This document shows positions 255 to 30,031 of a stretch of DNA of 64,000 nucleotides, piece by piece (position 1 is the stretch's first letter; every line of letters begins with the position of its first letter). This DNA comes from Acidobacterium sp. S8. GTDB taxonomy: Bacteria > Acidobacteriota > Terriglobia > Terriglobales > Acidobacteriaceae. A program made the translations under genes and the position numbers. The DNA lies in NCBI RefSeq assembly GCF_009765985.1, contig NZ_LMUM01000034.1:1-64000 (forward strand), written 5' to 3'. The notes beneath the pieces were generated by a model. That model did not search any database and was not told the origin of the DNA. It saw only the letters and a program-made list of their open reading frames with translations.

Positions 255-1619
255 TCATTCTGCGGGCAGAACAATATCGACACGCAATCCCTGTGGAGCA
301 GCATTTTGCGCGCGAATCGTGCCGCCATGCACGCGCACTACGCGCTCAGCGATTGCCAGTCCCAGCCCTGTTCCACCGGATTGACGGTCGCGATCGCTGG
401 CCACGCGATAAAACGGTCGAAAGATATTTGGAAGCTCAGATTCAGGAACTCCCATGCCGTAATCGCGTACGGAAAGGAAAATGAAGGAGCCCTCCGCTTT
501 TTCCAGATGTTCCAGATGAACATCGACCGAAGCGTTGGGAGTGGTGTAGCGGACGGCATTGCGAATGACATTCTCAATCGCGCTCTGCAACAATTCAGCG
601 TTCCCATGCACGAAACACTGCCCACGCATGGTGAGCTGCACCGCATTCTCGCGCTCTCGCAGCTCAAACTCGGCGCTACGAACAATCTTCGAAAGTAGCT
701 CGCCCAGATCGATCCGCGTCATATCCACGGGCGTTGAGGACGTATCGAGCTTTGCAACGGTGAGCATCCGGCCAATCATCTCGCCCATGCATTCGATGTC
801 CTGTTCCATGTGGTCGAATGCTGAATCGTTACCCTTTCGCTCGCGTCCCAGATCGAGCGCCACGGTGAGCCTTGCCAAGGGTGAACGCAGCTCATGAGAT
901 ATGTCATAGATGAGCTGCTTCTGGCGGGAAATCAGCTCCTCTATGCGGCTTGCCATTGCATTGAAATCGCGCACGAGAAAGCCCAGTTCATCCTTGCGCC
1001 GCTCCATATCTGCAGAAGCGCGCATGCCTAAATCACCCGCGGCGAGGAGTTGCGATGCTTCTCGCAGGCGCAGAATTGGAATAGTAAGATGTCGTGCGAG
1101 AAGATAGCAGATGCCAAAAGAAACAAGAAGCACCACGCATATGCGAAGCGCAATGGCAGTTCTGCTGATGGTTGGCGTGCCTGTAGGAATCTCCGCAGCG
1201 TAGATGTATTGTTTGCCACCACTGCTCTTGACCAGCATGGCGACACGGGCGATTCCATCCCTGACGAAAATGCTTCCGTTTTTCGTGGAGAGTACGCGAG
1301 AGATATTGCTGGCGAAGAGTTCACAGTCATCGCCGACGACTGTATTTCCCGCCTCATCAAAAAGACACGCATGCGTGTGCGTGTTCGTTCCCATCTGCTG
1401 CATGTAGAGCGATGCAGCAGGCAGGCCATGCAGTTCAGCCTCTTCGACTGCGACCGCTCCAGAGTAACGCGCCGCGTTTGTCAAACCATCATGCCAACGC
1501 GAGGACATCCTTCCGGGCTGGAGAAGAAATGTAACGACCAGAGCGATACCTGTAACGATGACTGTCGTCCAGAACGACAGAAATATTTTGAGAAACAAGC
1601 TGTGTCTGGGGAGTTTCAT
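255..1619 (-). CDS. sensor histidine kinase, CpxA/EnvZ-like
   Basis: Membrane histidine kinase of 454 aa. An N-terminal transmembrane segment (about residues 10-33) is followed by a periplasmic sensor region to about 155, a second membrane segment (about 158-178) and a HAMP linker. The dimerisation helix carries the phospho-acceptor histidine in YDISHELRSPLARL near residue 240. The HATPase domain shows the N box (ENVIRNAVRYT) and glycine-rich boxes (RDYGMGVPE, GGTGLGLAIAERV). It autophosphorylates and passes phosphate to the regulator encoded just upstream. The two genes overlap by the ATGA motif at 1616-1619, so they are translationally coupled. Layout and the Spy-like neighbour point to envelope stress, as in CpxA, but the stimulus cannot be read from sequence. 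Confidence 0.9.
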   Translation of the reverse strand: MKLPRHSLFLKIFLSFWTTVIVTGIALVVTFLLQPGRMSSRWHDGLTNAARYSGAVAVEEAELHGLPAASLYMQQMGTNTHTHACLFDEAGNTVVGDDCELFASNISRVLSTKNGSIFVRDGIARVAMLVKSSGGKQYIYAAEIPTGTPTISRTAIALRICVVLLVSFGICYLLARHLTIPILRLREASQLLAAGDLGMRASADMERRKDELGFLVRDFNAMASRIEELISRQKQLIYDISHELRSPLARLTVALDLGRERKGNDSAFDHMEQDIECMGEMIGRMLTVAKLDTSSTPVDMTRIDLGELLSKIVRSAEFELRERENAVQLTMRGQCFVHGNAELLQSAIENVIRNAVRYTTPNASVDVHLEHLEKAEGSFIFLSVRDYGMGVPESELPNIFRPFYRVASDRDRQSGGTGLGLAIAERVVRVHGGTIRAQNAAPQGLRVDIVLPAE

Positions 1620-2314
1620 GTCACCTCAGAGCGCACGATAAGGAGATATCCGCTGCCACGTACCGCCTTGATGCGTTCGCCGGCATCGGCGGCGTGAGTC
1701 AGTTTCCTGCGCACATTGCTGATATGGACATCGATGACCCGATCAAATGGGCCCAGCTTGCGTCCGAGGACAACTTCAGTGAGATGCTCTCGCGTGACGA
1801 CATGCCCCGCATGGTGAAGCAGTGTTTCGAGAAGACTGAACTCGACGCTGGTGAGATCGAGTTGCGTTTTATTGATCCACGCTTCGCGAGCCGTGGAATC
1901 GAGGCGAATGTCATCCACCACAAGTGAAACGGCTGCATTCTTTGTGTAGTGTGTTCGGCGCAAAATGGCGTGAATGCGGGCGATAAGTTCGCGAGGATTG
2001 AAGGGCTTGGGCAGGTAATCATCGGCGCCAATTTCAAGCCCCAGAATGCGGTCTACATCTTCGCCGCGCGCGGTCAGGATCAATACGGGCACGGTAGACC
2101 GTTCCCGCAAATGGCGCAACACATCAAGGCCCTTCATGCCGGGTAGCATCAGGTCGAGTATCACGAGTGCGTAATCGTGCGAAAGAGCGCGCTCTAAGCC
2201 TTGCTGTCCATTGTGAATGGCTTCGATCGAGAAATCCTCTGTGCTGAGCCGTTCGGCAAGAAGCCGGCACAACTCCACATCATCATCGATGATGAGCACG
2301 CGAGCCATTCTCAT
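1616..2314 (-). CDS. OmpR/CpxR-family response regulator
   Basis: Receiver plus winged-helix DNA-binding protein of about 232 aa. The receiver has the acidic pair in LIIDDD, the phospho-acceptor aspartate in VILDLMLPGMKG (about residue 54) and the lysine in YLPKPFNPRE. The C-terminal half is a Trans_Reg_C winged helix (SVEFSLLETLLHH, RVIDVHISNVRRKL, VRGSGYLL). The frame is open further upstream only to a TTG. I prefer the ATG at 2314, with GAGG about nine bases before it. Gene order regulator-kinase, with a four-base overlap, is typical. The divergent promoter carries four direct repeats with 10-bp spacing, likely its own operator. Confidence 0.9.
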   Translation of the reverse strand: MRMARVLIIDDDVELCRLLAERLSTEDFSIEAIHNGQQGLERALSHDYALVILDLMLPGMKGLDVLRHLRERSTVPVLILTARGEDVDRILGLEIGADDYLPKPFNPRELIARIHAILRRTHYTKNAAVSLVVDDIRLDSTAREAWINKTQLDLTSVEFSLLETLLHHAGHVVTREHLTEVVLGRKLGPFDRVIDVHISNVRRKLTHAADAGERIKAVRGSGYLLIVRSEVT

Positions 2315-2368: not shown

Positions 2369-2404
2369 CTTTACAAAACTTTATATAGCTTAACCATTCT
2401 TAAT
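2369..2404 (+). promoter_or_regulatory. four phased direct repeats, probable response-regulator operator
   Basis: CTTTAC (2369), CTTTAT (2379), CTTAAC (2389) and CTTAAT (2399) each start exactly 10 bp apart, in the divergent promoter between the response regulator gene and the Spy-like gene. Direct repeats in helical phase are the usual target of OmpR/PhoB-type dimers. TTTAC-N5-TTTAT at 2370-2384 also resembles the reverse of the CpxR box (GTAAA-N5-GTAAA). A second array of the same hexamers occurs at 28989-29014. Binding is inferred. Confidence 0.6.
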
Positions 2405-2462
2405 CGCATGCTCTGTGGGCCAATGCTCGAATTGAGATGTGGCAGAAAAAGGAGATGTTGTT

Positions 2463-2933
2463 ATGAGACGAATCGTGATCTGGTCATGCGCGGCAGTATT
2501 GCTGGCAGTCACTGGAGTGGCCATTGCGAGGGCAAACACGCGGGGATGGAATGGATGCTTTGGTCACCGCTGGGGTCATTTTGGCGCTATGGGTTATGTG
2601 GCGCACGAATTGAATCTGAGTGATGCACAGAAACAGCAGATTCATTCCATGTGGCAGACGGAGCGCCCTGCTCTATCCGGGCTGCTTCAGGAATTCGCTG
2701 CGGAGAACAAGGAAATGGACCAGGCCACTGCCAAAGGCAACCTCGATGAAAGCAAAGTACAAGAGATAGCCGCGCGACAGGGTGCGACTGTGGCGAAGCT
2801 GCTGGTGGAAAAGGAACACTTCAAAGCGAAGATCTACGCGACGGTTTTGAATCCGGAGCAACGGACCAAGGCAGACGCATTGCAATCCCGCTGGCATGAC
2901 CGTTTAGATCACATCGGCAAGAGGATGGAGTAA
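2463..2933 (+). CDS. Spy/CpxP-like periplasmic LTxxQ protein
   Basis: Small exported protein of 156 aa. A signal-type N-terminus (MRRIVIWSCAAVLLAVTGVA) is followed by a helical body with two LTxxQ-type motifs, LNLSDAQKQQI and LNPEQRTKAD, the hallmark of Spy/CpxP periplasmic chaperones and metal sensors. A His/Gly/Trp-rich stretch after the signal could bind metal. The frame is open from a GTG at 2439, but the ATG at 2463 has AGGAG eight bases before it. The gene is divergent from the two-component system and preceded by its likely operator. In Cpx systems this protein feeds back on the kinase; that role here is inference. Confidence 0.8.
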   Translation: MRRIVIWSCAAVLLAVTGVAIARANTRGWNGCFGHRWGHFGAMGYVAHELNLSDAQKQQIHSMWQTERPALSGLLQEFAAENKEMDQATAKGNLDESKVQEIAARQGATVAKLLVEKEHFKAKIYATVLNPEQRTKADALQSRWHDRLDHIGKRME

Positions 2934-2937
2934 CGCG

Positions 2938-3735
2938 ATGAAAACGAAACTCGCAATTTTTACCAAACTGCCATTTTTTACTCAGTTGACTGTGATCGGG
3001 CTTGTTGGCGTCGCAATCGCACTCTGGATGCAATGGCTTTCCGGCGATCCCGCCTATCCCAAGTTTCCACCGGGACCTGTGATCTTTATCGCTATAGCGG
3101 GGGTGATTGTCATTGGAGCACGCTGGTGGTGGACGCCGCTGATCGGTGCGCTGATCTCGCTGCTGGTTACCTCCGGCTGGTTTGTGCGGCTGCCGGCGGC
3201 CATTCTGCGGTTGACTCATCCTGGGAGCGTCGGCAAATTCCACGCCGGTATATGGATTGGCGCGGTACTTCAAATCGTTGGGCTGGTGGTAGGAGATATC
3301 GCGGGCCTGGCTGCGACGGTTCAAAACTACCGGCGCATGGGAACTGCGGGCGACAGCGCAAAGATGGCATGCCGGATTTTTGGCGGAATATTTGTCCTGA
3401 TGGGGATACTGGTTATGGTCGGCGGAGCCCACGTGGACAAATATCACAACCTGATGCATCTCACGTGGGGCGCTCTGGCACTTGGCGCGAGCTTCATGGG
3501 CGCGACTGTCGCAAAACGCTTCTGCATCGGATCCGGCGTTTTCTATCTGGCGCTGGCCATCCTTGGCCTGCTGCTTGGAAATCCATTGATGAACAGGACA
3601 TGGTATCTGGGGCCGATGCTGCTAAACACCGGAGACCATATTTTTCACCTGGTGCTCGGCTCGCTCTTCCTGAGCATCGGTCTGCTTTCGGGACGCACCT
3701 TGACGATTCATCGTATCCAGCAAGTTGGAAGTTGA
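2938..3735 (+). CDS. integral membrane protein of unknown function
   Basis: A 265-aa protein dominated by hydrophobic segments (about seven, for example near residues 20-32, 48-60, 66-78, 103-122, 150-163, 172-186 and 198-212). It starts four bases after the stop of the Spy-like gene, so the two are probably one transcript under the same stress regulator. The C-terminal half (HNLMHLTWGALALGASF and the following helices) recalls DUF4383-like four-helix membrane proteins, but I would not insist on that. The basic N-terminus has no cleavable signal. Function unknown. Confidence 0.75.
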   Translation: MKTKLAIFTKLPFFTQLTVIGLVGVAIALWMQWLSGDPAYPKFPPGPVIFIAIAGVIVIGARWWWTPLIGALISLLVTSGWFVRLPAAILRLTHPGSVGKFHAGIWIGAVLQIVGLVVGDIAGLAATVQNYRRMGTAGDSAKMACRIFGGIFVLMGILVMVGGAHVDKYHNLMHLTWGALALGASFMGATVAKRFCIGSGVFYLALAILGLLLGNPLMNRTWYLGPMLLNTGDHIFHLVLGSLFLSIGLLSGRTLTIHRIQQVGS

Positions 3736-28450: not shown

Positions 28451-28903
28451 TCATCGGCCTGTCGCATTTTGCTTTCCAGCCTTATGCAGCGAGGCCAGTG
28501 AGCTGTCAGAGTTAGCCCTGTCATCTATCTTGTTGTGTCGAAGCAGCTCGGCAGTTCTGCCTGTACCGGGCACATAGACTGCTTCTAGAGTCTGGCGTCC
28601 GTCGGAATCGTCAAAGGTCACGCTTCCTTTTGATCCCAGCCGGCTGTCGTCTTCAGGACGCACCGTTACGAATCTCTGTCCTCCTCCATTCACATTGCGA
28701 ATGGAAAGAGTCCACGCAGATAACAGAGTGAACTCGTATGTCCCAGCCGGATAGGATTGGCTGCCGGCAATGAAGGCAACTGGAGTAGTTACGATAATCG
28801 TTTGGGCTCCGGCGTTCTGCGTGCTCAGAGCTGACATGCCGCTCATAGTAATGGCTGCAAGAACTAACTTGAGGAATATAGAAGTAAGCTTTTCACGACT
28901 CAT
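28451..28903 (-). CDS. small exported protein of unknown function
   Basis: A 150-aa protein with a signal peptide (about 1-34, cut near NAGAQT) and a beta-rich body (VAFIAGSQSYPAGTYEFTLL, QRFVTVRPEDDSRLGSKGSV) of a type I associate with acidobacterial exported proteins, ending in a polar tail. Start at ATG 28903 is fixed by AAGGAG six bases before it; the frame is open to 28960. About 100 bp upstream lies an array of the same hexamer repeats as in the two-component promoter, so it is probably a target of that regulator. Confidence 0.75.
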   Translation of the reverse strand: MSREKLTSIFLKLVLAAITMSGMSALSTQNAGAQTIIVTTPVAFIAGSQSYPAGTYEFTLLSAWTLSIRNVNGGGQRFVTVRPEDDSRLGSKGSVTFDDSDGRQTLEAVYVPGTGRTAELLRHNKIDDRANSDSSLASLHKAGKQNATGR

Positions 28904-28988
28904 GGTGCGCTCCTTACCGCGCAGCCAATGGATATCTGCGCAGTAACTCGATTTCAGCATCGGACATGAAGGAGTGCGATAAACATTA

Positions 28989-29014
28989 GTTAAGCTGAAT
29001 TAAGTTTTGTAAAG
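28989..29014 (-). promoter_or_regulatory. phased repeats matching the response-regulator operator
   Basis: On the plus strand GTTAAG (28989), ATTAAG (28999) and GTAAAG (29009) are spaced exactly 10 bp. Read on the minus strand, toward the exported-protein gene, this is CTTTAC-N4-CTTAAT-N4-CTTAAC, and it shares the exact 13-mer CTTTACAAAACTT with the array at 2369-2404. Weaker flanking units are at 28979 and 29019. Confidence 0.6.
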
Positions 29015-29151: not shown

Positions 29152-30031
29152 CCCATCCTTTCGCATATTTTTGCGAAAGGGTGGGAAAGCAATATTCTTC
29201 AAGCCGCACTCCCAAAGCCAAGAGAGGCGCCGAAGCGCCTCCCGGGTAGAAGCACCGGCCTTTAGGCCGGGGAAATACTCAAGCGATCGGATAGTTCTCT
29301 ACTGAGCAGTCGTTGCCTTGTCTGCGACTTGTCGGATGGACGCAGCCCGCACAGTCGCAACCCTCGACCTGTTCACAATGGATTTCAGCATCATTTCCGC
29401 CCGCGATGAAAGACAGACGCCGAATGATCCTTTCCCTGAACCGTAAGTAGAGCGGCCATGCGAGGGGCGGGAACCGATAGCCACGATGACGATCAGGACG
29501 GCCGCGAAAATAGCGAAACGGCGCATAGGTCGATCCTCTGGAGGACGATACGGGGGCTGTGTCATAGCAATTCCTCAAAACCTTCAGAAACAGATAAGAG
29601 CACGCAATAGGCCAAATATTATGGCGCGCAACCTCTCTGAAACCAACAGAAATCCCGGACATTCAAAAAAGGACTGTCCGTTCTAGGGTCAAAGCTATTC
29701 AAAAGTGGACACAGCCCGGGTGCCCAGGTTCGCGAGGCTAACCTGGGTTAAGGAAAGCACTCCCCTAAACCCACACTCCGAAACCCAAAAGAGCCGCGGA
29801 GGCGCCTCCAGAAGAAGCCGGGTGCCCCATCCTTTCGCATACTTTGCGGAAGGGTGGGAGAGCAATACACTCCAAACTCTATTCCCAAACCCAAAAGAGC
29901 CGCGAAAGCGCCTCTTCGATAGAAACCCCGAGAGATCCCTCAAACCTCGCAGCGTTATGCGTTTTTCAGATAGAAGCATCGTGGTTTAGCCCAGTGAAAA
30001 AAGGCTCGAACGCAGAAGGGGCTTCAGCCCG
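29152..30031. repeat. cluster of REP-like palindromes around a small gene
   Basis: Units: CCCATCCTTTCGCA-type hairpins at 29152-29185 and 29827-29858; a CCGGCC/GGCCGG hairpin next to GTAGAAGC at 29242-29271, related to the one at 44242-44268; and a GGGCTTCAGCCC palindrome near 30018-30031. Text of the form CCCAAAAGAGCCGCG followed by GCGCCTC recurs near 29780 and 29890. They occupy the gaps 28904-29298 and 29566-30055. Confidence 0.6.
29299..29565 (-). CDS. small exported or membrane-anchored protein
   Basis: An 88-aa protein with a hydrophobic N-terminal segment (FAIFAAVLIVIVAIG) after a short basic stretch, then a Gly/Ser-rich part and one cysteine (FGVCLSS). Start ATG 29565 has GAGGAA six bases upstream. 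Not recognised. A longer overlapping frame on the same strand lacks these signals. It sits alone among REP-like repeats. Confidence 0.5.
   Translation of the reverse strand: MTQPPYRPPEDRPMRRFAIFAAVLIVIVAIGSRPSHGRSTYGSGKGSFGVCLSSRAEMMLKSIVNRSRVATVRAASIRQVADKATTAQ

Follow-up and report, generated by a model that had tools for sequence, protein, structure and literature searches.

Does the gene for a small exported protein in Acidobacterium sp. S8 belong to the same envelope-stress regulon as a Spy-like gene of the same contig? The first-pass annotation had proposed this from a repeated operator array upstream of both genes. We addressed the question in the window (the whole stretch of 64 000 nucleotides analysed, positions 1-64000 of contig C27), in the complete S8 assembly (5.44 Mb, 38 contigs) and in genomes of relatives. 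The features are collected in table 1.

Table 1. Position and assignment of the features discussed for the two loci of the window.
Feature	Position	Strand	Basis or remark
CpxA-like sensor kinase	255..1619	-	NCBIfam best CpxA (Legionella type), 294.6 bits, below cut-off 800
CpxR-like response regulator	1616..2308	-	NCBIfam best CpxR, 240.6 bits, below equivalog cut-off 341
Sister array	2369..2404	+	between CpxR-like regulator and spy; fourth repeat CTTAAT at 2399-2404
Predicted extended -10 of spy promoter (TGCTCGAAT)	2424..2432	+	model alignment, column conservation
Spy/CpxP-like LTXXQ periplasmic protein	2463..2933	+	Pfam PF07813, E 2.5e-9, 38.2 bits, gathering score 24.3
Membrane protein, DUF4383 match	2938..3735	+	next gene after spy
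Small exported protein, 150 aa	28451..28903	-	ORF; Shine-Dalgarno AAGGAG at 28910-28915
Predicted extended -10, TGC TGAAAT (TGCTGAAAT)	28951..28959	-	model alignments, column conservation
Conserved CGCAC	28974..28978	-	directly behind array
Minus-strand array	28979..29014	-	four 6-bp half-sites, 10-bp period

Two CpxR-box-like arrays precede spy and the exported protein gene

The minus-strand reading CTTTAC-N4-CTTAAT-N4-CTTAAC at 29014-28989 proved correct in letters, strand and coordinates, and the 13-mer CTTTACAAAACTT is indeed common to 29014-29002(-) and 2369-2381(+). The first three repeats of the comparison array occupy 2369-2394(+). Both arrays have the same orientation towards their gene and start at a similar distance from the ATG, 94 bp for spy (2369 to 2463) and 111 bp for the exported protein (29014 to 28903). 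For the latter we preferred the start at 28903 over that at 28960, because the ATG at 28960 overlaps the -10 element and AAGGAG is well spaced for 28903.

The array is longer than previously described. A fourth repeat, GTTTAT (28984-28979), stands in the same 10-bp phase, so that the half-sites CTTTAC, CTTAAT, CTTAAC and GTTTAT are separated by AAAA, TCAG and TAAT. Only the first half-site has TTTAC; the other three read TTAAT, TTAAC and TTTAT. Read from the opposite strand, the array is GTAAA-N5-ATTAA-N5-GTTAA and resembles a CpxR box. The CpxR site is given as GTAAA-N5(-6)-GTAAA in the consulted parts of three papers (PMC9600279, PMC12802237, PMC8831704). Both arrays are this motif seen from the opposite strand and doubled.

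We searched for CTTWAY-N4-CTTWAY-N4-CTTWAY, using the reversed pattern as control. With up to two mismatches the window contained five matches, three of them exact, and none occurred in any of 100 dinucleotide shuffles. Across the whole genome the three exact matches were confined to the two array places, and the reversed control gave none. Allowing two mismatches returned five matches, again at these two places only, but nine for the reversed control; hence the exact matches are special and the near-matches are not.

The arrays are part of a promoter with a fixed layout

The succession of array, CGCAC and -10 found before the exported protein gene recurs at 2369-2432(+), between the CpxR-like regulator and the Spy/LTXXQ gene. 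Eighteen places in the family, selected by their neighbourhood and by what stands behind the array, show one order behind it: CGCAC, 14 weakly conserved bases and, at a fixed distance, TGnTGnAAT. By its position, TGnTGnAAT is probably an extended -10, which would place the transcription start of the exported protein gene near 28944. The hexamer 17 bases upstream of it, TCGCAC, is a poor -35 and lies directly behind the last half-site. Within CGCAC, the G and the second C are invariant in 30 of 30 collected sites, themselves picked with the pattern or the model. Conservation is low in the 12 columns 5' of the array (0.1 to 0.9 bits each), so that of the promoter does not merely reflect recent common descent.

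We built two promoter models from other genomes. The first used sequence alone; its 66 columns were drawn from 16 sites, all outside the S8 genome. At a threshold of E 10 it matched that genome at exactly two places. The match at 28949-29014(-) scored 49.8 bits (E 1.3e-12), that at 2369-2432(+) 45.9 bits (E 2.2e-11). The second was made from 12 promoters standing directly before spy, and it also found exactly two places, the spy promoter (E 3.5e-13) and that of the exported protein gene (E 6.6e-12). A model of spy promoters alone thus predicts the promoter of the exported protein gene, and no further one in the genome. The genome scan for additional members, which the first-pass annotation had recommended, gave no third place with the exact pattern or with either model. 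The array that it called an 'operator' is real, although the term is better replaced by activator site plus promoter.

The gap between 28990 and 30060 also contains a diverged intergenic repeat, present twice (29152-29257 and 29826-29930; 88 nt at 76%). It is REP-like and carries a CCTTTCGCA...TGCGAAAGG palindrome.

The spy locus encodes a CpxRA-like two-component system

The regulator divergent from spy carries Response_reg and Trans_reg_C domains (Pfam) and shows 47-48% full-length identity to E. coli CpxR. The sole PDB match of its DNA-binding domain at 1e-15 or better is E. coli CpxR (4uht), and the recognition helices are nearly identical, with PFD..ID.HISN.RRKL common to both. The kinase aligns with E. 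coli CpxA over residues 158-452 only (34% identity); its sensor half gave no alignment with that protein. Because neither protein reaches the cut-off of its NCBIfam family (table 1), we call the system CpxRA-like. The LTXXQ protein likewise matches NCBIfam Spy (E 2.9e-9) below the family cut-off. CpxR of E. coli is an activator of both cpxP and spy.

The promoter recurs beside CpxR-like genes in the family

The survey covered the family of Terriglobus albidus DSM 26559 (G188; Acidobacteriota, Terriglobia, Terriglobales, Acidobacteriaceae according to NCBI), to which S8 is also assigned. The three-repeat pattern matched 6 of 100 relatives and 19 of 398 family genomes, the latter with 38 matches against four for the reversed control. 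These 38 fall on 24 distinct places, 18 of which combine the gene context with CGCA or a sequence close to it. The other six (G264, G106, G252, G102, G039 and G366) have no CGCAC, -10 or gene context and were set aside, as was, on the same grounds, an array in G074 outside the family. In genus g92 (G264, G106 and G252; L154, L155 and L156) we observed a three-repeat CTTTACATA(C/G)CTTTACACTGCTTAAC array without the CGCAC or -10 layout, which by eye lies just 5' of a truA-like ORF in G106 and G252.

With the first model, 68 of the 398 family genomes had a match at E 0.01 or better. Strong places (E 1e-8 or better) numbered 29, in 20 genomes. The 16 sites of the first model sit among them, which makes these 29 places dependent on it, unlike the held-out tests. 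Their first gene is spy in 12 cases and a relative of the exported protein (28451 family) in 11; the rest are an MFPQ-type gene, a relative of the 2938 gene and a further membrane protein family, two each. Nineteen of the 29 are divergent from a CpxR-like gene, and all 20 genomes have a site in that position, the one in G310 at no better than E 4.7e-6. We did not count G277, whose match is broken in two by an indel (E 1.9e-8 and 2.8e-7).

The 11 places with a 28451-family gene span four genera (g1, g9, g32 and g35). In seven genomes (G169, G188, G295, G349, G256, G370 and G285) this gene comes first in the operon opposite cpxR; the other four (G000, G002, G140 and G310) have it behind a separate array, which in G310 lies just behind the kinase gene. 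Of the genomes in the genus of S8, G002 has an array before a 50%-identical relative of the exported protein; G003 (99% complete) and G001 (77%) have none before a 28451-type gene, and G001 has no array at all. The regulon membership claimed for the exported protein is therefore supported by an array unique to two promoters of the genome, by the array before its relative in G002, by the share of its family among the strong places (11 of 29) and by the family gene standing first opposite cpxR in seven genomes.

Places weaker than E 1e-8 were not counted, but nine of them were read (L197-L205). Here model matches of E 2.4e-8 to 1.7e-5 lie beside a regulator-kinase pair, whose regulators are 53-59% identical in eight of nine cases and 70% in L198. 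This suggests that the system has a branch that is older or paralogous. In GTDB contigs, the four-repeat pattern matched at least 118 stretches, mostly from unrelated phyla among the matches listed. Of these listed matches we used L136, which is Terriglobus albidus DSM 26559 and identical to the G188 DNA over 1990 bases, and L042, which is the same DNA as a tandem repeat in G366; L051 and L104 were set aside.

The exported protein belongs to a family wider than the regulon

The protein begins with a hydrophobic stretch, and by eye its signal peptide ends near the junction of AGA and Q. It had no Pfam or NCBIfam match at 0.001, the LTXXQ domain included. Thirteen family members gave a single Pfam match, to a family other than LTXXQ (E 0.15), and the family profile had no PDB sequence match below E 0.15. 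For the 150-residue protein, AlphaFold2 on the single sequence gave a useless model (mean pLDDT 44.6). Residues P41, F44, G54, Y56, F97 and L106 are invariant in the family.

Of the ten other family places, BLAST with the window protein alone detected relatives at four (G002, G188, G256 and G370); the remaining places were recognized by the family profile, G295, which is close to G169, without a score of its own. A profile of the two genes from the genus of S8 found nine others at E 2e-12 to 3e-23 (G188, G169, G349, G140, G256, G370, G285 and G310, plus the uncounted G277). The reverse profile found the pair at 3.1e-23 and 3.5e-28, and none of 450 shuffled decoys matched the family profile. 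This profile also matches members that lack an array (E 6e-7 to 1e-18), which means that the family extends beyond the regulon. The S8 genome has two more distant family genes (C25:389 and C27:196219) and G043 has four family matches, none of these at an array place; regulon membership is thus not a property of the whole family. Whether the array-bearing genes of the S8 genus and the cpx-operon genes go back to one recruitment or two was asked of a tree of 17 exported proteins, which fits an array that may have been acquired once or twice.

Other gene families share the promoter

The gene that follows spy in S8 (2938) has a relative with its own array in G140 (67% identity, DUF4383 match) and another in G367, only 31% identical over 117 residues. 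We also observed, as a further regulon member, an exported protein of 331 residues (MFPQWLRYLG type, here MFPQ-type) without a Pfam match. It has arrays of its own at G043:C2:756049-756113 and G141:C254:16894-16958, and in G003, of the S8 genus, its gene stands behind spy (L007 1-891). By these gene orders, the same families, MFPQ-type and 2938-type, swap between the cpx operon and separate arrays. The two proteins of the remaining membrane protein family found at array places share 29% identity (E 4.7e-18). G367 has two arrays in one operon, 560 bp apart (G367:C2:135789 and 136349; L181), one of them upstream of a membrane-protein gene, the other immediately upstream of spy.

In four genomes of genus g9 (G256, G370, G285 and G277; 97-100% complete), the first gene opposite cpxR is of the 28451 family. 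With the window Spy as query, no relative was found in these whole genomes at E 0.001, nor in the 7 kb behind each of the four promoters; the same query found its target in six of six control genomes at E 3.4e-32 or better, G230 of genus g9 among them. Each of the four has a PF07813 match above cut-off elsewhere and is thus not devoid of LTXXQ proteins. We tentatively propose that the 28451-type protein could be a new class of Cpx-controlled envelope effector able to replace CpxP/Spy; we hold this somewhat less probable than its opposite.

A model for activation and its alternatives

Array and promoter together are, with high probability, the promoter of an acidobacterial Cpx-type envelope-stress regulon that would drive both spy and the exported protein gene. 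The CpxA-like kinase would sense envelope stress and phosphorylate the CpxR-like regulator, on which step binding would depend. Two regulator dimers, arranged head to tail on the same face of the helix, would then occupy the four half-sites with their 10-bp phasing. With the last half-site abutting the poor -35 (TCGCAC), and the extended -10 (TGnTGnAAT) at a fixed distance, the bound protein would replace the -35 contact and recruit RNA polymerase, in class II type activation. One array would in this way switch on spy (2463), and the other the exported protein (28451-28903) under stress.

The sign of control may be questioned: the CpxR-like regulator could bind the array and repress, or merely tune, a constitutive extended -10 promoter. 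Such a promoter could work without a -35, and an array beside the -35 position can also block polymerase. We nevertheless judge this improbable: the array lies upstream, its spacing is fixed and its layout is that of the spy promoter, all of which favours activation, as we infer here. It is still less probable that another regulator of the OmpR family recognizes the array and that its cpxR neighbourhood is incidental. Direct-repeat sites are common to regulators of this family, of which many paralogues are expected in a 5.4-Mb genome; against this stand the 19 strong places divergent from a CpxR-like gene, such a site in 20 of 20 genomes, the CpxR-like recognition helix and a half-site that is that of CpxR. 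Finally, a chance motif, a concern raised in the first-pass annotation and favoured by the AT-rich gap, the unrelated phyla that prevail among the GTDB matches listed and the six of 24 family places without promoter context, is practically negligible given the empty shuffles (0 of 100), the lack of a third place in the genome, the held-out model (E 6.6e-12) and the array kept before the relative in G002.

Activation by the CpxR-like regulator thus remains our preferred reading. The analysis yields a precise promoter model and a small core regulon, along with a first functional context for a family of exported proteins that has no significant match in Pfam. The protein might be a small beta-rich periplasmic or surface protein that buffers damaged envelope proteins beside or instead of Spy, although we regard this as doubtful. 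The comparison of genomes further shows that targets of a conserved stress regulator are exchanged between species, passing between its own operon and separate arrays, and that in one genus the usual chaperone gene appears replaced.

Comparison with known systems

In the literature on CpxR in Acidobacteria/Acidobacteriota, titles and the beginnings of abstracts gave no description of Cpx control, and the consulted part of the main text of a Granulicella transcriptome and proteome paper (PMC7074687) mentions neither Cpx nor Spy. The kind of system is already known; what is new, as judged from the genomes, is the target family and the distinct promoter layout.

The best match of the kinase is the Legionella-type CpxA (NCBIfam NF045900), over profile positions 2-450 of 451, but its 294.6 bits fall short of the cut-off of 800. 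Compared with E. coli CpxRA (NC_000913.3), the regulator is alike in overall identity (47-48%), in its near-identical recognition helix and in the divergent LTXXQ-type gene; the kinase differs in its sensor half, which does not align. When compared with four E. coli Cpx proteins, those of the 28451, MFPQ and 2938 types gave no match. The E. coli cpxP promoter carries CTTTAC-GTTG-TTTTAC (TTTAC-N5-TTTAC) directed towards cpxP and 95 bp upstream of its ATG; for S8 spy this distance is 94 bp. However, S8 has four clear half-sites where E. coli has two, and adds the conserved CGCAC and the extended -10. The layout also recalls the pho box promoters of PhoB, in which a direct-repeat array for an OmpR-family regulator stands in for the -35 element; there the period is 11 bp and the half-site CTGTCAT, whereas the S8 array has a 10-bp period and the half-site CTTTAC.
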